Below are positions 4,939 to 54,241 of a DNA stretch of 64,000 nt, in pieces. Position 1 is the stretch's first letter; each line of letters opens with the position of its first letter. Source of the stretch: Schistocephalus solidus (Eukaryota; Platyhelminthes; Cestoda; Diphyllobothriidea; Diphyllobothriidae). Location: assembly GCA_017591395.1 (NCBI GenBank), contig WEDG01006661.1, forward strand, positions 1 to 64,000, given 5' to 3'. Below the pieces are notes generated by a model. The model did not search any database. It was given only the letters and a program-made list of their open reading frames with translations, and had not been told where the DNA came from. Both the position numbers and the translations under genes were made by a program.

Positions 4939-5211
4939 GCATTTTTCTCCCGGGTATGAATTTAAAGCAGGCGTAAACAGCAGGATTTATTGGTACCAAG
5001 AAATTTCGTGACAGCTTATCAACTGCAACCCGTCTTTTGCATAACACAAGTAACGAATGAAAATGGACAGCAGTTTGAAATTAACAGAAAATATCAATAC
5101 ATAACAGCAAAGTCCAATGGACAACGTACAATAACTTCAAAAAGGAAATGTGAGGGAGAAGCTTATACAACTAGAACCATGAAGCATCTAGGGTGAAAAT
5201 CACCAGGGCAA

Positions 5212-5718
5212 TTGTAGATTAATCACGTAGTCTAGTTGCTTACAAAGATTGGGCTTTCTCCCTCCGTATGTACGCTGCTTCCAAGTAGCGCACGTCCGAG
5301 TTGTTCGTGCCCGAACAAGTACGCGGAAAAGCTGTTTTTGAGGTCTACATAATGACCACTGTCTAGTATATGTTTAGTAATCGAAGAACGTGGTACTTTA
5401 TTTTTCTTGTTTAAATAACCAATTAGGTAAAATGTTCAGTGGCTCTGGTTGCTAATTGCCTTTGCGTTCGCCCAATGTACTTGCATCCACAAGTGCACGT
5501 GAATTCATAAACACAATTTGGGGTGGCGTGCAACGGCAAGGCATCGTTTGGATGGTTGATTGGCAGGCTTCTAGTACGATTGATAAAGAAGAGCTGAGCT
5601 GCATTGTATGTTCTTCCAATGGTGCAGCATAATCGTCGCTTGATAGTATTAGAAATATTGTCACCCTTAAAGGGTAAGTATATGCTAACGGGCTTTTTGG
5701 AACTGAATGTTCCACCAC
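5212..5718 (-). pseudogene. PLE-1 copy B GIY-YIG endonuclease domain (broken)
   Basis: This would nick target DNA for PLE integration. The - strand gives the same residues as the intact copy A domain at 7,852-8,367: a CVYEFTC.CGCKYIGRTQRQL core (the GIY-YIG equivalent), then a Cys/His-containing middle and the AAYIRREKPNLCKQ tail. In this copy the open stretch 5,718-5,452 is in a shifted frame, and extra bases near 5,320-5,440 break the remainder. Two Cys residues just before YIG are typical of PLE endonucleases. Confidence 0.75.
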
Positions 5719-5896
5719 TTTTGGTCGTAAGGTGTTGCTATATTTTTGAATGAAACGTGCAGGATATCCACAGTTAAGTAAGACTGATTTGATGCAGGCA
5801 ATGTCTGTATCTAGAGTTTCACTAGAACAAATATTTCTCGCCGTTTAAAAAAGTGTATGTACCAAATTTCATTTCCATTGTACTGGTACAAAGCAT

Positions 5897-6520
5897 TTAA
5901 AAGTTCAAGTATTGCCCTTTCCAAGTATTTTTGTGGAAGACAGAGCGCCTTATTGAGCCATCATCCTCTCTGACTATGAGGACGTCTAGGTAAGGTAGCG
6001 TGTTTTTCTTTTCCTTGTTCATTGTAAATTTTATCTTATGATGCAATGTATTCATGGTAGAAAGAAGGACTACGGCGTCTTTCTTGTTAGCAACAATCGC
6101 AAATATATCCTCTACGTATCTTCTGTATAATGTTGTCATCTTCAATTTAGAGGACACCTTTTCTTCAAAGTGACCCATAAAAACATCGGCGAAGGTTGGT
6201 CCAAGTGGACTTCCCATTGCGACTCCATCAATTTGTCTATAGATTTGCCCATTAAACAGCAGTTGTACATTTTTGGTGCAAAGTGTCAACAATTCACGTA
6301 GTACTTCAGTCGACAGACGTGTTTTAGTCGCATGGGTGCATATACCATCTATTGTTTCATCCAATGGTACATTTGTAAATAAAGATTCCACGTCCAATGA
6401 AATCATACACTTACCGGCGATGTTTAAGCGCTTAATTACATCAATAAAATGAAAACTGTCTTTTTGTGGTATAAGTGGAAAAACAGTTTTCGAATTGGTT
6501 GTAGCTCCCTTACAAGCCAT
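5897..6520 (-). pseudogene. PLE-1 copy B reverse transcriptase, C-terminal two thirds
   Basis: This open stretch of 207 codons encodes PLE RT motifs: MISLDVESLFTNVP (first catalytic Asp region), [20 protein letters not shown], and YRRYVEDIFAIV, followed by LPYLDVLIVRE. The usual YVDD box reads YVED, so the first catalytic Asp is Glu, as in copy A. Upstream RT residues (6,900-6,530) are present but interrupted by frameshifts near 6,480, 6,640 and 6,750. It is a dead copy closely related to copy A. Confidence 0.85.
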
Positions 6521-7472
6521 TTAGCTAGTCTATGTTGAGGTGCATTAGACATTGAAAGAATTGGCCGTAGAGGTATGTCCTTCTTATGTGTTTTGGGTAA
6601 TCCATATAATCTGGGGATATGTGTACCTTTTTGGTTTTAGAGAGAGCGCAGTATTAGCTTCAATCAGGTTTTTTTGTCCAACAACTGTTTAACCATTTTC
6701 CAAACTGATTTCTCCATTGCTTTAGTTTTGATCTTTCCCTGATGTCTCAAGGTGAAATTTACTTTGGTCATTTAAAATAGATTCCATTTTTTTCTCACAT
6801 AGTCCTTCCGGTTAAGGATAATAACTCCGTGGCCTTTGTCAGGCTTTGGAGATTATTATTTGTTCATGATGTTTCAGTGCGGAAAGGGCAGCCAAGTGTT
6901 CTTTTGTTAGAGGTGTCAGTTGTGTTATAGGCGCTTTTACGGTACTGATGAGCAATGTCCACAAATTTTTGCTTTCAGCCAGCCAACGTCGTCAATGGAT
7001 CTGGGTACTAGATCAGCTAGTTGACAATTCAATTCTTCAAACTGGGTCTCAATTTCAACTGGGTTTATTCTACTGTTCGGCACACAAAAAGTCGAGTCCC
7101 TAGTGATAAAGCTTCTGATTGTAGCTTATTGAGTTTAATGTCTGATAGATTAAGAATAACTTCATCAATGTTCACAGGAAAATTTTCGTCCGTTGGTCTC
7201 TTGCATAAGGACTTCCTTAGTTAAGAGCGATGTGAGCCTCTTTGTCTTACTTAGTATAATGCAAGTATGTTTCATGAACATTAACCAACAGTATAGACTT
7301 ATCTTGTCAAGGACATGTTTTGTCTGATCCAGGCGAGATTTGATGAGTGAAACGGTCTCAACTGAGTCTTCAATTTTTGATTGTGTAAGGCGGTCCAGAT
7401 TTTTTTATCGTTGGACGTAATTTTGCCCCTACGGAGGATCTTGAAGAAATCCACTGGGATACTCCTTGCTAT

Positions 7473-7697
7473 TTATGCAGTTCTGAAGAAATTCAATCCG
7501 TGTATTTTTCCTTCGTTATTTTGCATTTTAATTGTAAAATGTCTATCCAAAGACTTAATTATATCTGGTGGGAGGTGCTGTTTGAGAAATGTAAAGCATT
7601 TTCTCCCGGGTATGAATTTAAAGCAGGCGTAAACAGCAGGATTTATTGGTACCAAGAAATTTCGTGACAGCTTATCAACTGCAACCCGTCTTTGCAT
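7473..7697 (-). pseudogene. PLE-1 copy B N-terminal ORF fragment
   Basis: A 74-codon ORF starts (Met at 7,697) inside the repeat shared with the 3' UTR of copy A and continues into copy B, ending at a stop at 7,473. Past that stop, shifted frames continue with PLE N-terminal sequence down to the RT. This shows that the terminal repeat supplies the translation start of the downstream copy. Function of this N-terminal part is not known; it is basic and lacks a recognised motif. Confidence 0.6.
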
Positions 7698-7851
7698 AAC
7701 ACAAGTAACGAATGAAAATGGACAGCAGTTTGAATTAACAGAAAATCAATACATAACAGCAAGTTCCAATGGGCAACGTAAATAACTTCAAAAAAGGAAA
7801 TGTGAGGGAGAAGCTTATACAACTAGAACCATGAAGCATCTAGGGTGAAAA
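7597..7851 (-). repeat. PLE-1 terminal repeat shared by tandem copies A and B
   Basis: About 255 bp are nearly identical to 4,939-5,211 and, in reverse complement, to 10,738-10,967. On the - strand it is the 3' UTR of copy A and at the same time the 5' leader of copy B, the arrangement known for PLE pseudo-LTRs. Confidence 0.8.
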
Positions 7852-8367
7852 TCACCAGGGCAATTGTAGATTAATCACGTAGTCTAGTTGCTTACAAAGA
7901 TTGGGCTTCTCCCTCCGTATGTACGCTGCTTCCAAGTAGCGCAATGTCCGAGTTGTTCGTGCCCGAACAAGTACGCGGAAAGCTGTTTTGAGGTCTACAT
8001 AATGACCACTGTCTAGTATATGTTTAGTAATCGAAGAACGTGGTACTCTATTTTCTTGTTTAAATAACCAATTAGGTAAATGTTCAGCGGCTCTGGTTGC
8101 CAATTGCCTTTGCGTTCGCCCAATGTACTTGCATCCACAAGTGCACGTGAATTCATAAACACAATTTGGGGTGGCGTGCAACGGCAAGGCATCGTTTGGA
8201 TGGTTGATTGGCAGGCTTCTAGTACGATTGATAAAGAAGAGCTGAGCTGCATTGTATGTTCTTCCAATGGTGCAGCATAATCGTCGCTTGATAGTATTAG
8301 AAATATTGTCACCCTTAAAGGGTAAGTATATGCTAACGGGCTTTTTTGGAACTGAATGTTCCGCCAC
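7852..8367 (-). pseudogene. PLE-1 copy A GIY-YIG endonuclease domain
   Basis: The 171-codon open stretch is the best-preserved PLE-1 endonuclease in the window. It shows SIYLPFKGDN, a C-x-C-x-C cluster leading into KYIGRTQRQL, AAEHLPNWLFKQ, ITKHILDSGH, and ends LQLPW. Single-strand nicking is the known role of this domain in PLEs. It is separated from the RT ORF by a frame change between about 8,368 and 8,545 (the other frame covers 8,013-8,450), so RT and endonuclease are not one uninterrupted ORF here. Confidence 0.85.
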
Positions 8368-8544
8368 TTTTGGTCGTAAGGTGTTGCTATATTTTTGAAT
8401 GAAACGTGCAGGATATCCACAGTTAAGTAAGACTGATTTGATGCAGGCAATGTGTGTATCTAGAGTTTCATTAGAACAAATATTTCTCGCCGTTTAAAAA
8501 AGTGTATGTACCAAATTTCATTTCCATTGTACTGGTACAAAGCA

Positions 8545-9600
8545 TTAAAAGTTCAAGTATTGCCCTTTCCTTGTATTTTTGTGGAAGACAGAGCGCCTTA
8601 TTGAGCCATTATCCTCTCTGACTATGAGGACGTCTAGGTAAGGTAGCATGTTTTTCTTTTCCTTGTTCATTGTAAATTTTATCTTATGATGCAATGTATT
8701 CATGGTAGAAAGAAGGACTTCGGCGTCTTTCTTGTTAGCAACAATCGCAAATATATCCTCTACGTATCTTCTGTATAATGTTGTCATCTTCAATTTAGAG
8801 GACACCTTTTCTTCAAAGTGACCCATAAAAACATCGGCGAAGGTTGGTCCAAGTGGACTTCCCATTGCGACTCCATCAATTTGTCTATAGATTTGCCCAT
8901 TAAACAGCAGTTGTACATTTTTGGTGCAAAGTGTCAACAATTCACGTAGTACTTCAGTCGACAGACGTGTTTTAGTCGCATGGGTGCATATACCATCTAT
9001 TGTTTCATCCAATGGTACATTTGTATATAAAGATTCCACGTCCAATGAAATCATACACTTACCGGCGATGTTTAATCGCTTAATTTCTTCAATAAAATGA
9101 AAACTGTCTTTTGTGGTATGAGTGGAAAACAGTTTTCGAATTGGTTGTAGCTCCCTTACAAGCCATTTAGCTAGTCTATGTTGAGGTGCATTAGACATTG
9201 AAAGAATTGGCCGTAGAGGTATGTCCTTCTTATGTGTTTTGGGTAATCCATATAATCTGGGGATATGTGTACCTTTTGGTTTTAGAGAGAGCGCAGTATT
9301 AGCTTCAATCAGGTTTTTGTCCCACAACTGTTTAACCATTTTCCAAACTGATTTTTCCATTGCTTTAGTTTTATCTTTCCCTGATGTCTCTAGGTAAAAT
9401 TTACTTTGGTCATTTAAAATAGATTCCATTTTTCTCACATAGTCCTTCCGGTTAAGGATACTAACTCCGTGGCCTTTGTCAGGCTTGGAGATTATTATTT
9501 GTTCATGATGTTCCAGTGCGGAAAGGGCAGCCAAGTGTTCTTTAGTTAGAGGTGTCAGTTGTGTTACAGGCGCTTTACGGAACTGATGAGCAATGTCCAC
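8545..9600 (-). pseudogene. PLE-1 copy A reverse transcriptase
   Basis: This 351-codon ORF covers nearly the whole [80 protein letters not shown], and YRRYVEDIFAIV. The last motif departs from the YVDD consensus and probably weakens or abolishes catalysis. The ORF ends at 8,545 in the linker before the endonuclease. It reads upstream without a stop to about 9,650, where the element is cut by the inverted copy C. Confidence 0.9.
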
Positions 9601-9653
9601 AAATTTTGCTTTCAGCCAGCCAACGTCGTCAATGGATCTGGGTACTTGATCAG

Positions 9654-10967
9654 CAAAAATTGTACAACTGCTGTTTAATGGGCAAATCTATAGACAAATT
9701 GATGGAGTCGCAATGGGAAGTCCACTTGGACCAACCTTTGCCGATGTTTTTATGGGTCACTTAGAAGAAAAGGTTTCCTCTTAATTGAAGATGACAACAT
9801 TATACAGAAGATACGTAGATGATATATTTGCGATTGTTGATAACAAGAAAGATGCCGTAGACCCTCTTTCTACCATAAATACATTGCGTCATAAGATAAA
9901 ATTTACAATGAAACAAGGAACAGTACAACACGTTACCTTACCTAGGCGTCCTTATAGTCAGAGAGGATGATGGCTAAATAAGGCGCTCTGTCTTCCACAA
10001 AAATACATGGAAAGGGCAATACTGGAACTTTAAAAGCTTTGTACCAGTACAATGGAAACGAAATTGGGTACATACTTTTTTTTAAACGGCGAGAAATATT
10101 TGTTCTAGTGAAACTCTGGATACAGACATTGCCTGCATCAAATCAGCCTTACTTAACTGTGGATATCTTGCACGTTTCATTCAAAAATATAGCAACACCT
10201 TACGACCAAAAGTGTCGGAACATTCAGTTCCAAAAAAGCCCGTTAGCATATACTTACCCTTTAAGGGTGACAATATTTCTAATACTATCAAGCGACGATT
10301 ATGCTGCCCCATTGGAAGAACATACAATGCAGCTCAGCTCTTCTTTATCAATCGTACTAGAAGCCTGCCAATCAACCATCCAAAGGATGCCTTGCCGTTG
10401 CACGCCACCCCAAATTGTGTTTATGAATTCACGTGCACTTGTGGATGCAAGTACATTGGGCGAACGCAAAGGCAATTGGCAACCAGAGCCGCTGAACATT
10501 TTCCTAATTGGTTATTTAAACAAGAAAAAAGAGTACCACGTTCTTCGATTACTAAACATATACTAGACAGTGGTCATTATGTAGACCTCAAAACAGCTTT
10601 CCGAGTACTTGTTCGGGCATGAACAACACGGACATTGCGCTACTTGGAAGCAGCGTACATACGGAGGGAGAAACCCAACCTTTGTAAGCAACTAGACCAT
10701 GTGATCAATTTACAATTGCCCTGGTGATTTTCACCCTAGATGCTTCATCGTTCTAGTTGTATAAGCTTCTCCCTCACATTTTATTTTTTTGAAGTTATTT
10801 ACGTTGACCATTGGACCTTGCTGTTATGTATTGATTTTCTGTTATTTCAAACTGCTGTACATTTTCATTCGTTACTTGTGTTATGCAAAGACGGGTTGCA
10901 GTTGATAAGCCATCGCGAAATTTCTTGGTACCAATAAATCCTGCTGTTTACGCCTGCTTTAAATTTT
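9654..10967 (+). mobile_element. PLE-1 copy C (inverted, 5'-truncated)
   Basis: On the + strand this copy starts within the RT at the sequence for [14 protein letters not shown] and runs through the RT C-terminus (9,785-9,970, with intact YVDDIFAIV), the endonuclease (10,190-10,735) and the 3' UTR to 10,967. It is inverted relative to copies A and B and joined to the truncated 5' end of A. Frameshifts near 9,680 and 9,940 and a stop at 10,621 inactivate it. Confidence 0.85.
10212..10622 (+). pseudogene. PLE-1 copy C GIY-YIG endonuclease domain (premature stop)
   Basis: The open stretch reproduces the copy A endonuclease through KTAFRVLVRA. A TGA then stops it where copy A continues RTTRTLRYLEAAYIRR. 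The rest is readable past the stop to about 10,735. The Cys-rich KYIGRTQRQL core is intact. Confidence 0.85.
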
Positions 10968-25544: not shown

Positions 25545-28500
25545 ATGTTGCTGGATGACTACATAAAGAAGGACCTTTTGTGGTCAGAATTACCAACTGA
25601 GGTCCAAATCTTTCTCAATAATGATGAAGAAGAATATGATGCGCGTATCCTGGTTTACTTTTTGCAAAATCAGCTTGAATATGGCGGGAAGTTAATAACA
25701 AAGGTAACTGCCTAACGAAGTCGTCACACATGTAGGTTATACGTAGCGAGAAAAGCTACTATCAGCAATTGATACACTACAGCTCACAGTTTTTAATGTT
25801 ATTTCCGTATCATCTGCAGCGGAAGATCGTGGGTGGTCTTAAGATTACCCCTTTTGGTTACTACCGATCTATTGTCTACCGAACAATGCTTGCTGAATCT
25901 TCCTATGATAGGATTCCCAACTTCACGGCTGCTGCTTGCTATCAAGTACTTGGAATAGGAAGAAATGAATACATTGACTTATTAAATACTTATAAAGGGC
26001 TTATTTGTTCGCCACAATCCGATTTAAAGGAACCCCCTTCTGTTATTCTCAACAATCTGCTCCCAAAAGTTCCTCTTGATTGTAAAACGCTGGAACCCTG
26101 GTTTATCGTTCGTGTGGGCTCGGTTAGCTTAAACGACGTTGAATCTTCTAGACCTGAGGAGAAAGCTCTTTTGGATAAGATTATTGACAACGATGTTGCT
26201 CTCAATGCAGAAGCCCGGGAATTATACTCATGTCCTGGGCTTAGAGTTTCCGACGTACCCATCGAACTTCTTCAACAGTTATATCGCCGGGGCCTGATTT
26301 ATTTCGATGTCCCTATTTTTGACGATGATTGCATCTCTGTCCCTACGCTCGACGGTTTCATAATGAATCGAATTACTGGGGACAGCTGCGAGACCATGCT
26401 TTATAAAATTTTTGTTTCTCTCGATCCTCGATCCTGTGTTCGTGATCTTGCTGTGGATCTTGGTGTTCAAACTGAGTTTGTTCGAAATGCCGCTTCAATC
26501 TTCTGTCGACTTGGATTTGCGCAAAAGAGTGAATCTAAGGGTGCTGTTCATGTTTCTTTTGACAATCCTAGTTCTGAGGATCCCTGTGGAAACATTCGTG
26601 ACTCACAGGGTAGCCTGGAGTCACCTGCACATGGTCATACCGATGTACACTTGAAGAAGATTGCCTTTATCTTCGACTCTACGATTACTGCTTATCTTAT
26701 GCTGGGCAACCTCTCGGCCGATCTGAAGAAACATTCTGTAACGATGTTTGAGGTCGGAAAATTGACTGGACACTCACTGGAAGCTTTTTACAAAAAGTTG
26801 AGCGCTGTATCACAACTTCGTGAGCAAGATGTTGGCATATATTATGAACACGCACGGTGTCTCAGTGAAACAATGTGCTCCATTTCAAGAAGCTACTCAG
26901 TTTCTGAAGACACTACCTCTCTTAACCTGGACTCTTTCGATCTCCTGCGTTGTGGTTCGCTTGAATCATTGGAACCCGTAACCAGGTCTCGTATTCTCAC
27001 AAAAAACTACGATCTGCTTGTGTGCATGGCTCCACTTTCATACGAAGAGGCACAGGTTTTTGACGAAAGTTGGCCTCTTGTGATTGGGCCGCCCACCTCG
27101 GAAGCCAGCTCCCCGTGGTTTCGCTTTTTCGTTTGTTGCGCAGCGAGTAAGGCTGGCACCCAGCTGTCCACACAAACTCGCCGTAATTTTGGTACCGAGT
27201 CTTGCACTATGCCAGGTATGTTACTGTGTCGTGGATCCAGGCTCGATTGTCTTCCAGCACCACTTTCCTGTTTTTCACATTTCTTGGTCACATCGTGGGA
27301 CCATGATCCAGTTTTCATGGATATCTACACTTTGTTCAACGCCGTGAATGACCTTATTTTGACTTCGCCTGTATTTATTCAAGTGAGTCCTACTTTCCAG
27401 CCTTTTCTTCCTTCTGCCATACGAATAAAAGCTTTGGCTTCAACATTTAGACCGTTTATCTCTATGAAAATACGTCATTGTGTGCAAGTAGTCCATAGTG
27501 CTAACTTAGGCTCACACAGTTTCTCATTTCGAACCCCTAACTTACGCGCCTTTTTTCCTCTCTAAGCTACATCAGTAACTTTAAATAATTTACAGGCCTC
27601 ATCTATAATTTTCTTGACCTCCAGTCACCTTTTATGCTTCGTTGCAGGTTCGGGCCTGCTATCTCTGGTAGACATACTTCTTTGGCTCCAAGTTTTAGGC
27701 AAGCATTTTCAGTTGTACTTATTCCGTGCAGTGATAAGTGCCCACGAAGTCTTAGTCCTTCAGTTACTAATCTTCCATCCACAGAGATGGATAAATATTG
27801 TTCGATTCGCCCTTTTGGTCATACCTTCGAGTTTTCTCAGGACCGTTGTTTATGAATATCATTATGATAAAGACGGCCAGCAAGAGCTTTAACATATTTG
27901 GTGATAGATTTGCAGGCCGGATCGTCCCTCACTTCATCGGTTTATTTTTCCTTGCCGCTTTCATCCAAACCAGATGCCTCGATGACACAGCTTAGATTAG
28001 GTTTTCAAACTACCCATTAGAGCTGCTTCGCTTGATATTTTTAACAAATTTCTAATGATATCAAATGATACCCTTTTGATACTATTTTCTGAGGCCTACG
28101 ACGATGAAGAAGATGGCGATCCACTTCTTCAGCGTTTTCTACCTCTTCCGCTGTCGCAAAAGTTTCTTGAAGAAAGCGGCAAAAATCTGCGTTGGTTGAG
28201 AAATTTGTCCGAAAAGGTTGACTTAACATCCCTTGTCGGTTTCCTCTCGCTTCTGGTTCCTGACTCTACTGAAAAGACAGAGGACTCTACATTGGACAGT
28301 GCTTCAGCGGCGAGGCAAGCCCCTGCTTATCAAGCCAATACCTCGCAGTTCTTCGAAAACACACTGGTCAACCCCAGGGCTGTAATATCGGAGTCGGAGT
28401 TCGCACAAATTTTGGCTTCAGGACGTCCCATCTGCCTTTTAACTATGCACATGGGCATACCGCTTTTCAATTTGGCACTCAATAAAGCCGTGTTTGCTGG

Positions 28501-28762
28501 CATAACCACTCTCTCTAGCACTGGCGAAGAACACAACGGCCTTTTGTCTTCGGGAATGCGCGGTTCGCTGTCCAAGGCCAATAAGATGTTGCGCTCTCAG
28601 CTTAGGACTTTCATTCGGGAAGTGGGTGGAATGTACGTAAAAATTAACTCATCTTATGACGCCACGGGTACAGCAGAACGCAAAAACATTGCCTCAACTT
28701 GGCCACTCCCTACGAAGTCCTACTGTTGCACGGATGATGGCCTTTCCATTTGGAATGAGTAA
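25545..28762 (+). CDS. FAM91A1: FAM91A1 orthologue (three exons)
   Basis: FAM91A1 binds TBC1D23 and the WDR11 complex and helps capture endosome-derived vesicles at trans-Golgi golgins; this role is known from animals, not shown here. Exon 1 is 25,545-25,703 (53 codons, start MLLDDYIKKDLLWSELP, aligning with the family N-terminus). Exon 2 is 25,736-27,382 and exon 3 is 28,094-28,762, giving about 824 residues against about 838 in human. Introns are 25,704-25,735 (32 nt, GT...AG) and 27,383-28,093 (711 nt, GTGAGT...GAG), both phase 0. FAM91_N motifs include QFLMLFPYHL, LPNFTAAACYQVLGIGRN-like residues, FIMNRITGD and FCRLGFA. FAM91_C begins near residue 360 with KKIAFIFDSTITAYLMLGN and includes NYDLLVCMAPLS, TSWDHDP, KVDLTSLVGF, MGIPLFNLALN and a C-terminal LP.K..DDGLSIWNE. 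It is intact and free of transposons. Confidence 0.93.
25704..25735 (+). other. FAM91A1: Micro-intron of FAM91A1 (32 nt)
   Basis: The intron starts GTAACTG and ends TGTAG. Removing it joins ...LITK to VIRSEKSYYQQL in frame, restoring the conserved N-terminal region of the family. The stretch contains an in-frame stop (CCTAACG), so it cannot be coding. Confidence 0.85.
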
Positions 28763-33118: not shown

Positions 33119-33408
<290 letters not shown>

Positions 33409-33409
<1 letters not shown>

Positions 33410-34851
33410 TAGTTGCTGTCCTGCTGATCATTGATTTTTTTATTCTCCCTCGCCTCGCCTGGGGGCTGTGTCGGGATGGCAAGTGTCATTGACCTCGTCT
33501 GCATTGCCCGCGTTTGGTGTACCGGACCCGCATGTCTGTTTCTCGTCCCTCGTTTGAATCTGTCCGTGCACGGCTCATCGGTGGTTGCTGAGTCATTGCC
33601 GGTGTCTCCGTTCCTACCGGGTTGGAGACGCTCATCATCGGTTTTCGTGCGCAAACTAAGTTCACCTGCGTCCACGTTCATGCCTGGCCGGAGGTCTTGC
33701 TGGTTTGCGTTCTCCGCGGTTATCCCCTCGAATGTGTTGGTGCGTGGCCTAGGTTCACTCAGGCATGTGTTCTGGCTCGTTATGCGATTGCTTGCCACCG
33801 CGAACAGTCTGACTTCTTGCCTGCGATTCTGTTGATTGAGCCGCACTCGTAGGGCCTGGTAGGCCGCCGGGAGAATCGTACAACGGTTAATGGAAGAAGG
33901 TACGGTGTGCCAGGCTTCGAGCGTTTCTCTGGCTCTTTGTTCGATACCTCGGCCTAGGGATTTCGGCGTCCTGGAAAGAAAAATGTGTCCAGAGGCTGCA
34001 CAGTGTTCCGCCACCAACGAGAGCTGATCCATCCTTCTTACGGCCCTTGCGTGCTCACTCATGCGGGTCTGTAGTCGCTTACCAGTCTCTCCGACATAGT
34101 TCGCCTCACAGGAACCGCACTGAACACGATAGACGACGTTCGCCGTTTCACCGCGTGACAGGGGGGCCTTGGGTCTCATTACCAGACGTCTTATTGTCGC
34201 CTCAGGTTTGTGGGCGACGCCGATCCCCAGTGGTTGTAAGAGACGAGCAACAGCTTCAGATACGTTCTCGATATATGGTATTGCCCGCCACACTTTCGGT
34301 GGTTCTATCACTGGTCGTATAACTTGCCTCGGTTGTCTGCTGCGTTCTATGAAGCTACGAGGATAACCGTTGGAGATGAACATTCGTTGAAGATAATGGA
34401 GCTCAGCTGCTTTGTCGCCTTTCTCGCTACAGTGAGTTTCCGCCCGTTTGTAAAGCGTCCGTACGCAGCTACGTTTGTGGCACAATGGGTGGTTACTTTG
34501 GTAACTGAGGACCTGACGCGTGTTGGTGGCCTTTCTATATACCGTTGTCCTTAGGCTGCCGTCGGTCTTACGGTGGACTAGGACGTCTAAGAACGCCATT
34601 TGACTGTTGGCCTCAGCCTCCATCGTGAACTGAATGTCCGGATAGATAGAGTTCAGGAGTGCGTGAAATTCGGTGACCGTTTCGCGCTTGAGAACGACGA
34701 AAGTATCGTCCACATACCGCACCCAAAATATTGGTCTGTGTTTCCTGAACACACGTGTCTCCAACTTTTGAAGGACCGCCTCAGCAATGAAACCAGACAG
34801 TGGCGAACCCATCGGAGTCCCCTTTGATCTGTTCGTAGACCGTTCCCTCAA
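33409..34851 (-). pseudogene. PLE-2a reverse transcriptase C-terminus, GIY-YIG endonuclease and C-terminal extension
   Basis: A 480-codon ORF. RT motifs are KGTPMGSPLSGFIAEAVLQK and FWVRYVDDTFVVLKR (intact YVDD), then AFLDVLVHRKTDGSLRTTVY. The GIY-YIG domain follows with VVYRVQCGSCEANYVGETG, RLQTRMSEHARAV and AEHCAASGH. About 140 hydrophilic residues come after it (for example RHAGPVHQTRAMQTRSMT) and have no counterpart in PLE-1. The first residues (MRERSTNRS) are an out-of-frame artefact, because the true RT enters from the ORF at 35,155-34,825 across a one-base frameshift at a G/A homopolymer near 34,818-34,826. Confidence 0.9.
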
Positions 34852-35155
34852 AGGTGAAGTAGGTTTTGAGGCAGAAAGTGAGCAGCTGGATGAGGTGCGC
34901 CCGTTTAGGCTTATTGATTACCTCGTCATAACGGTTCTCAAGCAAGTCATTGACAGTTTCAATTGCAAGGCTCTGAGGAATTGAGGTGAAAAGTGAGGTA
35001 ACATCAAATGATAACATGACTTCGTCTGCCTTAAGGTTTAAACCACGGAGTCTTTCCAAGAAATGGGCGGCTGAACGTACCGTTGTATCAGAGTCTGGTG
35101 TAAGGCACTTCAGACGTTGGAACAGCCATTTGGCCAGATTGAATGTGGGTGTTCC
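34820..35155 (-). pseudogene. PLE-2a reverse transcriptase, N-terminal part of the remaining ORF
   Basis: This encodes FNLAKWLFQRLKCLTPDSDT, VMLSFDVTSLFTSIP (catalytic Asp), LTFCLKTYFTFEGTVYEQIKG. It joins the downstream ORF by a single-base shift. The open frame extends upstream into the inverted arm to an apparent Met at 35,221, which is a product of the junction and not a native start. Earlier RT parts (the KTHK and LRPI motifs) are absent. Confidence 0.85.
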
Positions 35156-35331
35156 ACTCCCCCACCCCCCTGCAGTGCATCCTGCACGAATAGCTGTAGA
35201 GCCAGCATGTTCAGAACCCATAAATACTGTGAGGCGCCGTACTGGACCTACCTCCGACGATGGAATCTTGTTTGATTTTGAAACGTCAGGATATTAAACC
35301 TTTTGTTCCCGTGATCGCCTCTTCTTCTGAT
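35156..35331 (+). repeat. PLE-2a inverted arm, right, with hammerhead-like motif
   Basis: This is the mirror of the left arm. On the + strand CCGACGA lies at 35,254-35,260, GAAA at 35,280-35,283 and CGTC at 35,284-35,287, with a 3-bp CCT/AGG base for stem I. Confidence 0.85.
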
Positions 35332-35366
35332 TTATGCCCGGGACGCGCATTTTTTTGCTTCAATTA

Positions 35367-35369
<3 letters not shown>

Positions 35370-35456
<87 letters not shown>
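35370..35456. repeat. (TA)n microsatellite, about 87 bp
   Basis: This is a pure TA repeat 38 bp beyond the right arm of PLE-2a. Confidence 0.98.

Positions 35457-36380: not shown

Positions 36381-36381
<1 letters not shown>
36278..36381 (+). mobile_element. tRNA-derived SINE head, truncated at a (TA)n array
   Basis: The tRNA-like part carries a B box (GAGTTCGAGACTC), followed by the family body CTGGGGTTAAGTATGACTGGCTGA. The body stops there and runs straight into a TA repeat. The A box is degraded. Confidence 0.6.

Positions 36382-36435
<54 letters not shown>
36380..36435. repeat. (TA)n microsatellite between SINE and retrozyme
   Basis: A TA repeat with one C interruption near 36,392. The hammerhead repeat unit starts at its right end. 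Confidence 0.95.
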
Positions 36436-36437
<2 letters not shown>

Positions 36438-36647
36438 ATTCATACTACTTGTAGTACTACTTGTTTGTAGAATGGGCATTACGTGGTTATTCCACAGTGG
36501 TTGATTGTCTTCGACCCAAATGTTCATTGAAATTTCGGATCTGACCCTATAAATTCATGTCCGAATCACCTGACTCCATGTCCTGCACTTAATAATTTCA
36601 GAAATTATAAACCCGATTATTCTCTGGAGTCCATATACCAGAAACCG

Positions 36648-36757
36648 CATAGAGAACGCTGGGGGACCCACTGAGGAGCCGAACCCCTCGTTGTTGTGTC
36701 ACACAGCAGCAGAAACATCGGCGAAACACGCGTCTGGGCTTTTAGCTGGTATCTATG
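36648..36757 (+). ncRNA. Type I hammerhead ribozyme, unit 1
   Basis: Core CTGAGGA at 36,671-36,677 (CUGANGA; position 7 is free). Stem II is GCCGA (36,678-36,682) with TCGGC (36,718-36,722). GAAA is at 36,723-36,726. The short stem III is ACACGCGT (36,726-36,733), and C at 36,734 precedes the cleavage site. Stem I pairs CCCA (36,667-36,670) with TGGG (36,735-36,738), then GCT with AGC and CATAG with CTATG across internal loops. All conserved core residues are present. Confidence 0.8.
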
Positions 36758-37001
36758 TCAGAAGTACGGTATAACGTCTTAGTCATATAAGATTCATACT
36801 ACTTGTAGTACTTCTTGTTTGTAGAATGGGCATTACGTGGTTATTCCACAGTGGTTGATTGTATTCGACCCAAATGTTCATTGAAATTTCGGATCTGACC
36901 CTATAAATTCATGTCCGAATCACCTGACTCCATGTCCTGCACTTAATAATTTCAGAAATTATAAACCCGATTATTCTCTGGAGTCCATATACCAGAAACC
37001 G

Positions 37002-37111
37002 CATAGAGAACGCTGGGGGACCCACTGAGGAGCCGAACCCCTCGTTGTTGTGTCACACAGCAGCAGAAACATCGGTGAAACACGTGTCTGGGCTTTTAGC
37101 TAGTATCTATG
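37002..37111 (+). ncRNA. Type I hammerhead ribozyme, unit 2
   Basis: It has the same layout 354 bp downstream: CTGAGGA at 37,025-37,031, GAAA at 37,077-37,080, and the cleavage-site C at 37,088. The first stem II pair is G-T instead of G-C. Stem III reads ACACGTGT, a perfect 8-nt palindrome, as expected for hammerheads that cleave as dimers. Confidence 0.8.
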
Positions 37112-37444
37112 TCGGAAGTACGGTATAACACGGTATAACACGCGTGTGACACTCACTGATGTGGTAAGGATCTCACTCGATCCCATTCTGTCCACCCGCT
37201 AGCCAGCCTGCTACTGGTGACCATCAAACGTTGTGTCTTAGGACACATGCCACATATAAGAAAAATGTACACTGCTAAGGCAAGAAAACAGGCTCGAAGC
37301 CGACAGCTGTTTCACGGTTGGTACCGATCATCAGTACGTCATATGTATTGAGCAGTGAGGTATATACAGAAGTCAAACAAGCTTGTGACAAGGATGTGGT
37401 TAGGATCTCACACGATCGCATAGTGACTTATGGTATCTATGATG

Positions 37445-37610
37445 ATAATGTAGAACCAAAAAAGATAACGGAGACCGATATGACCATTTATGTTCTATTA
37501 GCCGTGATCAGCCAGTCATAACAAATCCAAAGTGTGGACCACCTGGGATTCGAACCCACTACGTTTGATCATTGAGTCGAGCGCTCTATCAATGATCCAC
37601 GGGCCCACTG
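37445..37610 (-). mobile_element. tRNA-derived SINE (- strand)
   Basis: The - strand shows a tRNA-like head with A-box-like GTGGATCATTGATAGAGCG and B box GGGTTCGAATCCC, followed by the family body (TTGTTATGACTGGCTGATCA, then CATAAATGGTCAT). It stands head to head with the SINE at 37,672. Confidence 0.7.
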
Positions 37611-37671
37611 TTTTGTAGGTTGCGATCAGGAATATGGTGATAGTGTGCGGCTCACCGATCTGGTTAGGGAA

Positions 37672-37840
37672 CAGGTATGTCCCATGGCTCATTGGTGAAG
37701 CGTTCGACTTAATGACCAAAGGTCGTGGGTTCGAATCCCAGATGCTCCACACTTGTGATTGTGTATGACTGGCTGATGATGACTTAGAGGTCAGAAATGG
37801 CCATTATATTATCCCTTGTCATTGTTTGTTCTACCTTATC
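37672..37840 (+). mobile_element. tRNA-derived SINE (+ strand)
   Basis: The head has GGCTCATTGGTGAAGCG (A box) and GGGTTCGAATCCC (perfect B box). The body has GTATGACTGGCTGATGATGA and AGAAATGGCCATT, then a CTTGTCATTGTTTG segment. The head resembles a tRNA, but acceptor pairing is poor and the body follows directly, so this is not a tRNA gene. Confidence 0.7.
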
Positions 37841-37860
37841 AACATCTTTAGATATATATA

Positions 37861-38454: not shown

Positions 38455-38500
<46 letters not shown>

Positions 38501-38575
38501 ACTACTCCTACTACTACTACTACTTCTACTACTACTACTACTACTACTATTGCAACTACTACTTCTACTACTGTC
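38453..38575. repeat. (CTA)n microsatellite, interrupted
   Basis: CTA repeats with a few substitutions. The poly-Tyr, poly-Leu, poly-Thr and poly-Val reading frames here are artefacts of the repeat. Confidence 0.97.
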
Positions 38576-42900: not shown

Positions 42901-45900
42901 TTATAAATTGAAAATGGCGTTCCAGTTTAAAAAAATTGTTTGGGCCCACAGTTATAATTGCTAAACCACACCTCAGGGAAAAGAAATAATAGAAATTAGG
43001 GTAATTTCATAGCTCACCTCATACGTTCCAATTTTTTGCACAGTTTAATATATGCATTGCCTTCAGCCTCTTCATCAGCGTTTACTTTCAATATCTTCTC
43101 TCGCAGCTCTTGTACTTCCTTTTCCATGGACAAATAAAGCACTGTTCTTTCTTTTGTATCCTTGAAATGGAGCCAATCATGATTATTTTAGTAACTAACA
43201 ATTCAGTTATGAAGAGGTGCTGTCAGCCAAGGTTGGCGACACTGTAATAATCACTTCTGGATATCAAACCATCGTCAGTCAGTCATGCCACAACCAATCT
43301 GCCGACGTACCAGAGTTTGGAACCAGGGCCCACTGAGCCTTTTGAGCCCACCGCCCCTACCGATTGGGTCATCGAATAGTCCTGGGTTATAATTAATGCT
43401 AATACTTTTACTACTCATTTTTGTGGGTAGTTTGTTGTACTGCAATTTATTTTGTCTTTAAAAGTACAAATGTTGATCGTAGAAGAAATCCATGTGGTGG
43501 GCTGAAATACTCAGTTTTGCAAGATTGAGAATATGAAAAGGTTAAAAAAACTGTCGTCCAACGATGTGTCCTGGGTGGAAAGGGATGCTCCTCTTTTGCT
43601 TCAGCTTTCCTTGTCCAGGACCCACCCAGACTGTCATGTGGTATCAACCATCAAAAGGCGCAACCGACACAAAGGGAATGGCACCTTAACGTTGTCTAAA
43701 AATATTCTTTTCCTTTTGGCCCCTTAAGATTTGGAAAATGAGGCGGGAGAACGGAAAATACCAGGCGTTCGTTTGGTACACGCTGCCATGCGCTTAATCG
43801 TGATTACTTATACTCCTAGCAGAGTGTCTAAACAAAGACATTGCGCACGGTCTAGTTTTAGAAACACCATTTTTAGGTCAATTACCGCCAAATACCCGTA
43901 TAAGTGGAATGCTTTTAGTCACCTCAACCAATCATTACTTAAAAGGATTTGTTGCAAGCCTACTGCTAACTCGTATGGCAGAGTAGTCACATACCTGCCG
44001 GCAAACAACACTGAACACACTGTCAATTAGAGCTTAAGGTCATTTTTATCGCAGCTTTAATTGTGACCCGCATTCAACCTCGCTCGCCGAAAAATGGCTG
44101 TTTGACCGAACACGCAATTTCAAAAATGAGTTACCCTCTGTGGAGGGCCAACTTGCCGTAGAGTCCAAAAGGCATCCCTAACCACGCCAGTTCATAATAG
44201 TCAAACTGGAAGTATAACTGCGTATGGGGTCTTGATGTAAGGTGAAAGAGAATGTGGGCAATTTTATCTCCCAATGAGAAACGGGAACGAACCGAAGACG
44301 TTCGACACCACGTAGTACGCTCTGCCTTCGGACAGTCCATGGGAAATCTACAGGCATTGCATACCCGTAAGTTCCTCATACGGACTCACAGGGCCGGTAC
44401 TTCTGGAAATTCGGTCGATTCCCGTTTACTTCTCGTAACCTGCCACAACTAAGCAATACGTTTTGATTTTCGTAAAGACTGCAGACAGCGCCAGATGTCC
44501 AAAGCCGTTACTGATGAGAGTCGCTCTTTTTCTTCTGCGGACATATAGGGCTTTCCATGCTGCATTTTTTAATTTCCCAGAAAATTAAGGCATTCATCGT
44601 AAGCACTCTTTCGGGCTCGGTTTGAAAGTGGATAGGAATATTTGAGTGGAAATCCGTCAGCAACTGCTGAATAGCGGCGTTATATTCCCAAGCTGCCAGC
44701 ACGCAGTGAGTCGTATACTAGTACTGCATTATTTTCCACACAGTATGGTTAATACTTGGATATTTTTACAGTTTTTCATTTCAATCCAAGTTGGAGGATC
44801 ACTAAAATTGGAAAAAAAATCGCTCACTTAGCTAATAAACAGAGATTATATCGTACGGCTGCTAGATACGATTTTGCGGGTTCAGGAGTGGAGTGTAGAC
44901 GGAATAATCAGTGTTGGATAATAAAGGGCCAGTTTGGAACTCCGTATCCCGATAAGGTGCTTCGAAGGTTATAGCGCAAGCCTTCTAACCCACAGAGCGC
45001 GTATTTGATCCTCAAGAGTCGCAACCCGTGGGCTGCGTATGGCTGGCCGATGACAGTTAACAATCCAGAAATTGAGTTTCTCTCCCTTGTATATGTCGGT
45101 AATCTCATTTTAAGCAGAAGAACATTACCGAAAAACAAATGAGACTGGGATTGAAATTTCTGGCTAATTAGCCATCATCACCCAGCCATCCCTAACCCCA
45201 AGTGATGACGACATATAAACCAGAAATGACCATTCAAGTCTCCTTTGTCGTTGTCGGTAATGTTCTTCTACTTATTATACTAGCCGCAGTGTAGCTGCTG
45301 GTGGAGCTCGTGTGTGACCCAAGGCAGAACAGGACGTGTGAGTCCTGTAACCGATCGACGAGCGTCTATCCACCAATGTCATTTTGCCTTTACTGTTAGC
45401 CATTGTGCGCTTGAGTTCGGGGCTCAACGTGTTTCTAGGCCCCTTAATGCGATCGGTCTGCGCCCTCTACCATCGTTAATACATCCGATTGCAACAGCCA
45501 CGGCTCAGTGGTAAGGGCTTTGGGCTTCTAAGGTCGCACTCTCGCGCCTCAGGAGTTGCAAACCTGTGGTTGGATATGGCTGGCTGAGGACGGGTCATAG
45601 GACGAAAATGGCCACACTTTTTCCCCTATTTTCATTCGTAACGTAAAGCTGCCTATACGGTGCTTTAACAGAACCCCGTCTGGAAACTGAGTTACAGAGA
45701 AGACAATCAATTCTTGGCAGCAAAGCAACCTGATTTTCAAAGATTTCCAAAGGCACTGAATAAGTCAGTTAAATTAAGACCAGTATACTGTTTAACAGGA
45801 AGCAAACATTGACGATCAAAGCTCTGGAAGAAGAGCTTTATAAGCCTAACATTTTGGATCCTCTCTCGAACCCATCTGCACAGACTGTCACACAATAGGG

Positions 45901-48900
45901 TCATAGGGGGCAAACGGCTCGTCGGTCCATACTCGAGTCGTTAACTGTCATGATTTCATCACCGTTGTCGATCATTGGCGTGACGATTACTCGACATTTT
46001 GGCCAGCTCTCACCCGGACATATGATCACCCACGTCCTCCTCACGTGGCTGGTAAATGTTTGCCCAGACAAAATCGAAACACAGAATATGGAGGCGGAAA
46101 ATCCTCGCAGTTGTTAACTAAATGTGTGCCGGAGAACCACTAGTCAAGCAGTTCATGGCTAACACGGTTGTAACCTCTGGTGAGAATTTTGGCATCATAA
46201 AACTTGAAGAGGCGGTCGGGTCTCGCTGAATGATCCACGATCTGGGAGTTAGCGTCATTTCTCCTCACCGCTGCTGCATGCTCGGTCATCCGCCTGGGGA
46301 GTAATCTCTCGGTTTCGCTGGCGTATTTGCTTTGTCAAAAACCACACCAGATCCGTTAAATGACTCTCGACGTTTCCTGCCCTGGCACTGGGTCTTCTGA
46401 CCGCATGACATGGTGCCTGATGGTTGCCTCCGGTCTGTGTGCGACTCCAACCCCGAGTGGTGTAAGGAGGCAGCTGATGGCTTTCGAGACATTCTTCAGG
46501 TACAAGAGCGATCGCCAAAATTTGGGACCGGTTTAAGTTTGTCGTTCGTCACATTTGCATATGCAGTGGTTGATGAAGTTGCGTGGGTATCCATTCGCTC
46601 TAAGAACCCGTCGAAGATATTGTCGTTCAGTAACTTGGTCTTCTGGTCCACTGCAATGCGTATCTACACGCCGATGTATCGCCTTTACGAAACTGTGTTT
46701 GTGGCAAGTTGGGTGGTCGCTAATGAAGCTTAGTACTTGCGTTGTTGTTAGCTTCCGAAAGACCTTAGTTTTTAGACCAGCACATTCTTTGCGGCGGACA
46801 AAGCAGCCGAGGAAGACTAGCTGGTTGTTTTCTTCCTCATCCAGCGTGAATTGTATGTCTGAGTAGACGGCGTTGAGATGTTATTTAAATCCCAACACCT
46901 GATCCCGTTTGATAACGACGAGGTATCACCCATATATCGAGCCCAGAATTTCGGTCTGTGGTTTCGGAAGACCAATGACTCCAACCGTTGTAGGACCGCC
47001 TCACCTATGCTTCTCGAAATTGGCGAACGCATTGGCGTGCCTTTCACCTGCTCGTAGACTGTTCCGTCAAACGTGGAGTACGTTTTGAGACTGAACTTCA
47101 GGAGTTGGAGGATTTGGGCGTGTCGATCAAATCAACTGTCAGGTCCTGTGGAATAGAAGTAAAAGCAAATACGCCAGCGAAACCGAGAGATTACTCCCCA
47201 AACGGATGACCGAGCATGCAGCAGCGGTGAGGAGAAATGACGCTAACTCCCAGATCGTGGCTCATTCAGCAAGACCCGACCACATCTTCAAGTTTTATGA
47301 TGCCGAAATTCTCACCAGAGGTTACAACCGTGTTAGCCGTGAGCTGCTTGACTAGTGGTTCTCCGGCACACATTTAGTTAACAACTGCGAGGATTTTCCG
47401 CCTCCATATTCTGTGTTTCGATTTTGTCTGGGCGAACATTTACCAGCAACGCGGGGTGGATGTGGGTGACCAAATGTCCGGGAAACAGTTTGCCAAAATG
47501 ACGAGAAATCGTCTCGCCAAGTATCGACATCGGTGATGAAATCACGGCAAGTAACGACTCGAGTACGGATCGACGAGCAATCATCTCATCAACCACGACC
47601 CCTGGCAAGTACCACGAGGACTGCAAATGGAGTAGGCGGGTGATGGACAGACAACCACAACCAATAAATACTATGCCCCGTGTGCCCTCTATAACCCTTT
47701 TTTGTGCAGATGGGTTCGAGAGAGGATCAGAAACGTCCGGCTAATAGAACCCGTTTTCTACTTATCGTGTCTCCTTCCTCATGACTACTTCCTTGAACTC
47801 GCTCTTCGCTTCTATGATCAAACATCTGTTCCTTGATTAGTTTGAGCCGAGGCCTGGCCAAAATTTGCTTAAGAGAATTTTGGAAGACGTACTGAACTTA
47901 CTTTAACGGTGTCTTTTGTTTTCTTCTCAAAAATTGCATTCACTTCATCGGTAAGTCCCACGTTTCTGGCGAGCTCCTGTTGTTCGGCCTGTAGGCTATC
48001 TTGTCGTGCCATGAGCCCATTGACCCTGGCACCAAGGTTCTGGAATTGCACACTCAGATCGGTATTTTTGATCAGACTGTTGTACTTATTTTCTCGCATT
48101 CTTTTGTCCGAGGCCGTGTTGAAAGCATTCAGTAATCGTAGTTTTTTCTTCTCCAGTTCCTGCATAAGACTGAAAATTTGACCTCTAAGTTCATATAGGT
48201 GTATGTTTGCAACCCTGCAAACGATTCAAGTTCTAAGTGTTAAGTTGTTTTTTACGGCCCTTTTCCAGAAAAGATTACATAAGCAGAGTTTTTTTCGATT
48301 AGAGGTGGTCATTTAAGTAAACTTAAAATATTACTCATCGTGCAGCATAATCCGAGGATATTCGAAGAAATTTTATAGAACTCATAAGCAAAAATATTCT
48401 TCCTTTTATACAAAGTACATTTTCTTTGCATTTTATACTTGACGAAAGGGTATCTTACAGTTTTTAAAATGCTCCAATTACCGAACACTTTTGAACCCGA
48501 CCCTAAAAAGCCGACTTTTAAAACCGAAAAGTATGGAATTTAAACCATACATAATTTTCTTCCAGGTATATTAAAATAACAATTTTTTAAGCATGGTTTC
48601 ATTTTTAAAAAAATATTTTGCTTTATAAGGATACCGAACATCAATGGGAAAGTGCATAATAATTAGGTAATATTTTTACGAAGTACAGTTTTTGCAGGCG
48701 GTTGTAAAGAAGCTGGTTCAAAGGCCAGTATCCTTAGGTGGTCAAAATATCTGAGGATAATGTTTCACATTAGGTAATATCAAATGCCTACTTAAGTAAT
48801 ATTTTCCAATTTTTCGTGAGGTAGCACCTCTACTGGCTAGCCGATTTTCTTTAATAGAATTAACAGTTCACGCAAACCAGCAAATCCCATGTACGATCTG

Positions 48901-49481: not shown

Positions 49482-49530
<49 letters not shown>

Positions 49531-49703
49531 GAATAACATGACCGACAAAGACAAGACCAGTCTCCCTTGTCTTTTGTCGGTCATGTTATTCTGCCTATAT
49601 CCTTAGCTGCCTTACGGCTGCTGGCGGGGGCTTGAGAGCTAGCCCCAAGGCACAACGGGACGAGTGAGTCCTGTAACCGATCGGTGACGCCCATCTACCA
49701 TTG

Positions 49704-49773
<70 letters not shown>

Positions 49774-52839: not shown

Positions 52840-54241
52840 AAAAGGAATCACAGTTACACCTGACGAGGTCATGGTTTCATTCGATGTGGTCTCGCTTTTC
52901 ACCGCAATCCCCTTGATTGAGCGAGATCATGCACAGTCGAACTAACTCACGCCTACTTCACTGGTGTACCTGACGATGCTTTACTCCAACTCCTAGACCT
53001 TTGTCTTGAAATCAACTTTCCTTCTCCGGCCAATGCTATAAACAACTTAAAGGGGCCCGTATGGGGTTGCCTATATCCGGCTTCCTGGCTGAAGCTGTAA
53101 TTCAGAAATTGGAATCGATAGCTCTCCCTGGTGTTAAACCAAAATTGTGGCTGTGATACGTTGTTGGTACATTTGTCATTTTCAAGAAAGAACTGTTAGA
53201 CTTGCTTCATAAAAATCTAAACTCAACATTTCCAGGAATTTAATTCACGTTCGAAACGGTAGCTAATGGACAACTCTTATTTCTGGATGTCCTCGTACAT
53301 TGGAAAACTGATGGATCACTTCACCCATCAGTTAACCGCAAAGAAACATATTCTGAATTCATCCTACACTTTGAGAGTTATCATCCTATCTCTCACAAAA
53401 GTAGTTCTGTCTACAGTCTCCTAAATTGAGCCAAAACACACTGCTCTGATGAATAAAGTTATCGAGCAGAAATGAAATACCTCTTTAAATTGTTTTCTAA
53501 AAATAGACAACCACGTTACTTCGTGCATCGATGTCTGAAGCGGCAAGAATCCAAAAAGAAAGGTATTTTAAACAACACGGCCACCCAGGCACCCAAAACA
53601 ATGACCTGGCGAACTCTCCCATACATTTAAAATATATCAAAGCTTGTCGAAAGACAGCTAAGAAAACACCAGATACAAGTAGCACACCACTCTACATCTA
53701 CTTTACGCTCACAGTTTGTACACCCTAAGGACAGGATTGGCTACCTTGATAAAAAAGGTGTTGTCTACAAAATTCCATGTTACAGTTGTAATGCCGTTTA
53801 TTGTGGCTAAACTGGGAAATCTGTCTCAACCCGCCTACACGAACATCAGTTAGTGGTTATGCATACACTGGAAACAGGACATAAATTTGCATGGGAGAAA
53901 ACATGAATTGTTAACATTTACAAAATCAGAAAAGGCCGTGAGATTCCTGGAAGCAAAGCACTCATATGAGGCATGCATCAACCGGCATATCGATTTGGAC
54001 GCTGCATACAAAATCGTTAAAGAAAAATTCAAACATGCAGAATCAATCACGACGGGACGACAAAATGCACTCAACGCGTATTGGTTGAGATTTCGCCCAA
54101 CCTCAGAATCATTTATTAAACACGGTTAATTAATTAATTGTTCCTGTACACTGCCCATAGTCTGACGACGAGCTGGGGGACCAGTCTCGAGAATTTACGT
54201 ATTAAAGTTTCTATTTTCCCTAAGAATTTCTTATTTTCTTT
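52840..54241 (+). mobile_element. PLE-3, decayed Penelope-like element
   Basis: The + strand gives broken RT: ITVTPDEVMVSFDVVSLFTA at 52,850-52,905, then DDALLQLLDLCLEI, GLPISGFLAEAVIQKLE near 53,065-53,115 and a lost catalytic box (YVVGTFVIF instead of YVDD). LFLDVLVHWKTDGSLHPSV follows. The endonuclease has VYKIPCYSCNAVYCG, a stop, then TGKSVSTRLHEH at 53,757-53,850. The C-terminal part is open at 53,887-54,129. A 3' UTR of about 110 bp follows and ends at a short TA run (54,242-54,261). Confidence 0.75.
53887..54129 (+). pseudogene. PLE-3 ORF C-terminal fragment
   Basis: 80 open codons: KSEKAVRFLEAKHSYEACIN, RHIDLDAAYKIVKE and RPTSESFIKHG. Its position after the GIY-YIG core and before the 3' UTR makes it the C-terminus of the PLE-3 protein. 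It is separated from the core by a frameshift near 53,880. Confidence 0.6.

Follow-up and report, generated by a model that had tools for sequence, protein, structure and literature searches.

The question raised by this locus is what kind of element is formed by two tandem 354-bp units that each carry a hammerhead ribozyme motif, and how such units come to lie beside a (TA)n repeat in a tapeworm genome. The locus is part of a 64,000-nucleotide stretch of Schistocephalus solidus contig WEDG01006661.1, hereafter the window, and the repeat family to which it belongs is denoted F354. On the basis of the sequence comparisons described here, F354 is probably a hammerhead-processed, non-LTR metazoan retrozyme that is inserted at (TA)n by target-primed reverse transcription of the type used by Penelope-like elements (PLEs).

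The F354 array occupies positions 36431–37129 of the plus strand. TRF reports a period of 354 bp, about 2 units (1.97) and 98% matches, and the array overlaps none of the stop-to-stop ORFs of at least 110 aa, in agreement with the preliminary description of two non-coding tandem units. The GC content is 42%, and no LTR was seen in F354 loci. Each unit comprises stem I (CCCA/TGGG), the CTGAGGA core, stem II (GCCGA/TCGGY), GAAA, stem III and a predicted cut after GTC. Stem II, which reads GCCGA/TCGGC in copy 1, closes a 35-nt loop II that is itself a hairpin, and the CATAG/CTATG extension of stem I that had been described is present in the fold. Hammerhead copy 1 (36665–36740, plus strand) has its core at 36671–36677 and its predicted cut at 36734/36735; copy 2 (37019–37094, plus strand) has its core at 37025–37031 and its predicted cut at 37088/37089. 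As had been pointed out, the two predicted cuts would free exactly one unit, namely a putative monomer of 354 nt (36735–37088, plus strand) that would form a circle if ligated. The claim that each unit holds a full type I hammerhead stands as far as its parts are concerned, which are found in both copies by a sequence descriptor and by Rfam alignment. It does not stand for stem III of copy 1, which is weakened (ACACGCGT) and retains two pairs; stem III of copy 2 is the full palindrome ACACGTGT.

Searches of the region alone with Rfam Hammerhead_1 yielded 21.6 bits for 36665–36740 and 18.1 bits for 37019–37094, neither of which reaches the gathering score of 34. A default Rfam scan of the 64-kb window reported neither F354 hammerhead, and a permissive whole-window scan reported the one of copy 1 only, with an E value of 1.4. 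The descriptor (CTGANGA, stem II of at least 5 bp, GAAA, stem III of at least 2 bp, NUH, stem I of at least 4 bp), composed post hoc once the F354 site was known, matched the two F354 sites and no others on both strands of the 64 kb; random sequence (134 Mb) matched to the window in dinucleotide composition gave no hit. When the isolated segments were folded, the hammerhead of copy 1 was present in the centroid fold and absent from the minimum-energy fold, and stem II of copy 2 was in neither. In circular minimum-energy folds, stem II was absent from the window unit and the hammerhead was present in a unit from contig C7382. F354 RNA may be a self-cleaving RNA that circularises, as judged from its sequence.

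At least 178 F354 matches are present in the 603.7-Mb assembly (40 of 2169 first-look candidates were scored), and the full-length matches among those listed are 94–97% identical. Contig C7382 (11.4 kb) consists of F354 throughout, with ~32 units end to end. Approximately 174 hammerhead segments of 125 nt, sampled with an exact 5′ anchor and many of them supplied by this 32-unit contig, represent 53 distinct sequences, and 87 of them are one identical intact sequence. F354 is spread over numerous arrays within this genome, which excludes a one-off locus, and with it the outcome of a single locus accompanied by decayed cores elsewhere that the preliminary description had envisaged. A short, ORF-less tandem unit with a type I hammerhead and many dispersed arrays also justifies the designation retrozyme-like. 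A scan of IMG/VR with one exact 27-base F354 pattern, which is a weak test, gave no match.

Insertion junctions were read in 29 fetched stretches and the window, a non-random sample of the best matches. With unit position 1 assigned to the base that follows the predicted cut, the 38 array segments examined provided 31 visible 3′ ends and 30 visible 5′ ends. The 3′ ends are concentrated at two points. Point A, where GTC is followed by ATATA at unit 50–55 (36784–36789 in the window, plus strand), accounts for 20 of the 31, which end at unit 53–57 (..GTCTTTGYCATATA). Point B, where CCCG is followed by AT at about unit 235–237 (36967–36971, plus strand, a window position obtained by arithmetic), accounts for seven, which end at unit 235–242 (..TTTACCCGAT, then TATA). 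These 27 ends pass directly into a TA repeat, which in locus L015 has only about four repeats; the remaining four lie at units 125, 48, 5 and, in the window copy, 41. The 5′ ends are evenly spread along the unit (KS p 0.39), none of the 30 being at point A or B and only one being at unit 1, the predicted cut, which is where synthesis on a cleaved linear RNA would be expected to run off. A fixed 3′ end combined with a free 5′ end indicates target-primed reverse transcription, and because 23 of the 26 complete segments are longer than one unit, a circular or multimeric template is needed. The mobility that had previously been inferred for this family is now supported by its insertion junctions. 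A special proximity of points A and B in the folded circle was also considered and rejected, as the graph distances in four folded units were not special.

The copy in the window does not show the standard 3′ junction: its sequence breaks off at unit 41 and contains a 10-bp duplication, with ACGGTATAAC present twice. Its 5′ end adjoins, at unit 51, a (TA)n repeat that TRF places at 36381–36435, consistent with the (TA)n array reported next to it. On its 3′ side lies a decayed copy of another tandem family, F233 (37137–37381, minus strand, ~80–85% identity), arranged tail-to-tail with F354 and with no (TA)n left between them. Loss of (TA)n between the facing F354 and F233 3′ ends would account for the window junction. 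The nearby SINE of the preliminary description is instead a decayed copy of another hammerhead-like tandem family, F306. Sequence comparison resolved it into a head-to-head pair with a left arm at 37413–37680 (minus strand) and a right arm at 37681–37846 (plus strand), the latter with a decayed hammerhead-like motif from 37773.

Elsewhere in the window, FAM91A1 exons are located at 25736–28762. This gene, near 25.8–27.3 kb, matches a Schistocephalus solidus protein with 100% identity across 96% of the query, followed by two further diphyllobothriid tapeworms at 89–90%, and as a single gene it makes S. solidus the very probable host. A (CTA)n array of ~118 bp at 38455–38572 is translated in ORFs as runs of serine or valine. 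Two copies of a 40-bp repeat, 93% alike, lie at 45318–45357 and 49644–49683, the latter shortly ahead of a (TA)n at 49705–49772. At 49528–49595, GCAGAATAACATGACCGACAAAGACAAG and its complement form an almost perfect inverted repeat that adjoins (TA)n. Matches of Rfam miRNA, snoRNA and pestivirus models to (TA)n were attributed to chance.

The F306 unit measures 302–307 bp. Part of it is tRNA-like, scoring up to 40.4 bits against the Rfam tRNA model, and it also contains a hammerhead-like fold composed of stem I GACTGG/CCGGTC, CTGATGA, GGCT/AGCC, GAAA and ATGG/CCAT. Tandem loci are L037:37-990, L018:73-1010 and L060:788-1409, and one stem II pair of the window copy is changed at both of its bases relative to other copies. 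The schistosome SM-alpha repeat is SINE-like and carries a hammerhead. In description, F306 resembles it as a flatworm repeat with a tRNA-like region and a hammerhead-like motif, and differs from it in forming tandem arrays that end at (TA)n. F306 enters (TA)n at unit 42 and at about unit 153, where 14 of its 31 visible 3′ ends are found; the remaining 17 belong mostly to decayed or broken copies.

F233, the third tandem family, was revealed by a blind descriptor scan. Its unit of 232–235 bp contains the hammerhead-like parts GATGTA/TGCGTC, CTGATGA, CGGT/ACCG, GAAA and ACAG/CTGT, and it has at least 318 matches in the assembly (40 of 653 candidates scored), including at least 37 units in a row at C191:216517-225100. 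A further F233 stretch is at L009:1-1060. Five of seven visible 3′ ends are at its (TA)n points, units 48 and 165. In a forward test on 20 further array ends, seven lay off the fetched stretch, and the 13 visible ones comprised ten at the first point (one of them, L073, with a short (TA)n only and open to an alternative reading), one at the second and two elsewhere. In locus L074, an F233 end at unit 149, off both points, is followed by about five TA repeats and then the PLE-B hammerhead region, possibly a further F233–PLE-B fusion. The hammerhead-like assignment of the companion families rests on the descriptor, because Rfam Hammerhead_1 reports no F306, F233, PLE-B or PLE-C motif at E limits up to 10 or 5. 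The descriptor was loosened for these families by allowing a mismatch at the first stem II pair. The strict form gives 22 matches in the 404 kb of loci that were fetched, 15 to F306 and 7 to F233, as against zero in 134 Mb of random sequence. Folded in isolation, the F306 and PLE-B motifs did no better than shuffles; the PLE-B piece folded, 35245–35285, ends 2 nt short of the predicted cut.

The window also contains putative PLEs, among them PLE-B. This element and PLE-C, which is 58% identical to it at the amino acid level over 332 aa, were named PLEs by eye on motifs and layout. The main PLE-B copy (33230–35157, minus strand) carries an ORF with reverse transcriptase (RVT_1, E 1.4e-8, above the cut-off) and GIY-YIG-like (16.2 bits, under the 22.6 cut-off) regions, and its 3′ end is CTTCTTCTG followed by (AT)n. 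An inverted arm (35156–35369, plus strand) ends at a longer point, ..AATTAGCC followed by (AT)n, and TRF detects (TA)n beyond both 3′ ends, at 33123–33235 and 35370–35456. The inverted arm contains a hammerhead-like core, CCGACGA (35254–35260), which differs from CTGANGA by one core change, with a predicted cut after 35287; the PLE-B ORF starts within stem II of such a motif. Among the PLE-B 3′ ends of 30 loci, 24 enter (TA)n at AATTAGC(AATAT) and six continue into a tandem copy, a count that is biased upward because the query held this end. The other point, CTTCTTCTG followed by AT, is 38 nt earlier and is used in the window, L025, L052 and L053. The two PLE-C points are 30 nt apart. F354 itself is neither a PLE nor, by sequence, a relative of PLE-B: it has no such ORF, the F354 unit has no match to the PLE region at E ≤ 10, and PLE-B has none to the F354 array. 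A different element, PLE-A (4943–10965), consists of two tandem minus-strand copies ~2.65 kb apart followed by a head-to-head plus-strand copy, and its outer ends have no (TA)n. More PLE-type coding fragments, with 37–66% amino acid identity to PLE-B, occur at 46056–47439 and 53016–53912, and a 417-nt inverted repeat is found at 45917–46333 and 47162–47578.

These arrangements have a parallel in PAc, a hammerhead-bearing PLE from the green anole lizard (Frangieh 2024, PMC11167929), which is reported to cut both strands of AT-rich DNA and to begin reverse transcription at two internal points separated by a 30–40 nt 'tail', at a start site that is not homologous to the cut DNA. PLE-B shares with PAc, as described there, the tandem copies and the ORF beginning at hammerhead stem II, and both PLE-B and PLE-C share the two putative start points 30–40 nt apart, the apparent use of both DNA strands and the AT-rich target. 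In contrast to PAc, the tapeworm elements sit in (TA)n, and F354, unlike PAc, is without an ORF.

Some F354 loci are head-to-head double arrays. Where both 3′ ends of a head-to-head pair are visible in a TA repeat, the arms end at different points in 10 of 11 cases (F354 L009, L033, L035 and L036; F306 L045; F233 L041; PLE-B in the window, L025, L052 and L053), the exception being F354 L015. Such a result or better has a probability of ~0.006 under even odds, as calculated by hand. The count leaves out pairs with an end that is hidden or not in a TA repeat (F354 L012 and L028; PLE-B L057 and contig C3534, comprising L042 and L061; F306 L016, L025, L052, L062 and the window pair), as well as the tail-to-tail PLE-B L046. 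Two loci join a retrozyme to a PLE. In L013, ~1.35 units of F354 that end at unit 48 continue without a break into the 3′ region of PLE-C, which lies on the same strand; (TA)n flanks the two parts on the outside and is absent between them. In L036, PLE-C and F306 are head-to-head, separated by ~1 nt of filler, and the 3′ end of each is followed by (TA)n. The simplest reading of both fusions is a single event that used PLE RNA and retrozyme RNA; independent insertions are a possible origin.

Two 3′ points in (TA)n are common to F354, F306, F233, PLE-B and PLE-C, the five families whose 3′ points were compared. Measured from the predicted cut to the last non-TA base, the first point is 50 nt away in F354, 38 in F306, 39 in F233 and 42 in PLE-B, and the second is 235, 145, 163 and 80 nt away, respectively. 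The range of 38–50 nt was chosen post hoc, and the PLE-C points, 72 and 102 nt after the predicted cut, fall outside it. The distances suggest that the hammerhead may position a PLE-type enzyme.

From the observed units, copies, junctions, head-to-head pairs and PLE–retrozyme fusions we infer cleavage, circles and the use of a PLE enzyme, as follows. Transcripts of the arrays would be cut by their hammerheads into 354-nt monomers, which a host ligase would probably close to circles. A (TA)n-targeting Penelope-like reverse transcriptase/endonuclease of the same genome would cut (TA)n DNA, and the freed DNA 3′ end would prime reverse transcription at ..GYC followed by AUAUA (50–55) or at ..CCCG followed by AU (~235–237), as the junctions indicate. 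Synthesis would then proceed upstream round the template, often for more than one turn, giving tandem units with an arbitrary stop position. Both DNA strands may prime, usually one per point, leaving two arrays head-to-head. Against PLE-type insertion stand the off-point ends (4 of 31 in F354, including the window copy, and 17 of 31 visible ends in F306), the lack of 5′ (TA)n in nine of 18 single F354 arrays, counted by eye, and the AT or ATAT that the points carry next to (TA)n, unlike the PAc start of reverse transcription. A more detailed version is tentative, and we would sooner doubt than accept its parts jointly: that three or more hammerhead RNAs with no relation to each other (F354, F306 and F233) parasitise the PLE machinery of one tapeworm; that the hammerhead is both cutter and docking module and sets one reverse transcription start 38–50 nt downstream; that a PLE enzyme acting as a dimer starts synthesis from the two (TA)n strands at different points and keeps copying around the circle; and that one RNA circle can yield single or head-to-head tandem arrays. 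The PLE-C distances speak against so narrow a spacing.

The principal alternative templates and enzymes can be weighed on the same junctions. PLE-type insertion could copy a long, uncleaved multimeric transcript, with the hammerhead trimming ends or docking and circles playing no part. Multi-unit arrays are accounted for equally well by such a template, and the PAc hammerhead was dispensable for insertion in vitro (PMC11167929). The homogeneity of the arrays bears on this point. Across 157 full units in 33 segments, divergence is 0.67% within a segment and 1.52% between segments, with 0 of 200 label shuffles as extreme, although one contig dominates the pooled figure. Averaged segment by segment, the divergence within is 1.12%; of the 24 multi-unit segments, 17 lie below the between-segment mean. 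The lower pooled divergence within arrays is what one small circle predicts, whereas in seven of the 24 arrays the units resemble one another no more closely than units of different arrays do; the data lean to one small template per array without settling the matter. Published retrozymes, moreover, are reported to give abundant circles (PMC7229834), and we consider the uncleaved template unlikely, though with a small real chance. Target-primed insertion by a LINE-type reverse transcriptase, with PLEs merely sharing the (TA)n preference, is improbable. LINE-like ORFs with reverse transcriptase and endonuclease motifs are present in the window (by eye), but the two 3′ points, one per head-to-head arm, and the 30–38 nt 'tail' are PLE features, and the fusions join retrozymes to PLE-C.

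The (TA)n could also be a product of the reverse transcriptase, made by telomerase-like slippage during insertion, and not its target. PLE reverse transcriptases are termed telomerase-like in PMC11167929, and nine of 18 single F354 arrays, counted by eye, have (TA)n on the 3′ side only. However, the other nine have it on the 5′ side as well, and the elements' own RNA cannot template perfect (TA)n after F354 GAUUAUUC, PLE-B GAUUUAUG or F233 GGCUUGUU; we think this origin unlikely. Almost no credence is given to F354 as an ordinary satellite that spreads by unequal crossing-over and DNA circles, its hammerhead being incidental. Long arrays such as C7382, with its ~32 units, exist, but a DNA circle integrating through TA microhomology predicts the same unit position at both ends, which the fixed 3′ and free 5′ ends contradict. 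Point B, moreover, shares no more than AT with its target, and the fusions with PLE sequence are also at variance with satellite spread.

Metazoan non-LTR retrozymes are described as short tandem repeats of 150–450 bp with type I hammerheads and a GC content under 50% (Cervera and de la Pena 2020, PMC7229834), features that F354 shares (354 bp, tandem, type I hammerhead, no LTR seen, GC 42%), and those of mussels are without most of the usual loop contact bases. According to the same paper, genomes with metazoan retrozymes also hold hammerhead PLEs, platyhelminths being among the phyla named, and PLEs were proposed in 2020 as retrozyme movers on the basis of this co-occurrence; the review PMC7761336 also treats retrozymes and the idea of PLE mobilisation. 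RNA circles were shown in the 2020 paper only, whereas junctions, head-to-head arrays and PLE fusions were read here. The W-elements of Schistosoma mansoni are flatworm tandem repeats that came up in a literature search on hammerhead ribozymes and are regarded as mobile, by a mechanism left open (PMC8490949); the terms retrozyme, TA repeats and microsatellite are absent from the main text of that paper. Literature searches returned nothing pairing Schistocephalus with a hammerhead, and nothing relevant by title or start of abstract on a tapeworm hammerhead ribozyme. In searches with incomplete coverage of subscription journals, nothing was found on Penelope-like elements with TA repeats or on comparable retrozyme or PLE junction evidence. 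The locus had been put forward as an undescribed system. As a class, metazoan retrozymes are already published (PMC7229834); F354 is a new retrozyme family, F306 and F233 are its new companions, and what is new beyond the families is the PLE-like mode of insertion that they share, together with the fusions.

The mover of animal retrozymes has been an open question since their first description, and the F354 junctions point to a possible enzyme. If this reading is true, three hammerhead families would be linked to PLE-style insertion by their junction sequence, the tandem layout would be explained by rolling round a small template, and exact priming points would be predicted. The hammerhead of PLEs would also gain a possible job, that of positioning reverse transcription.
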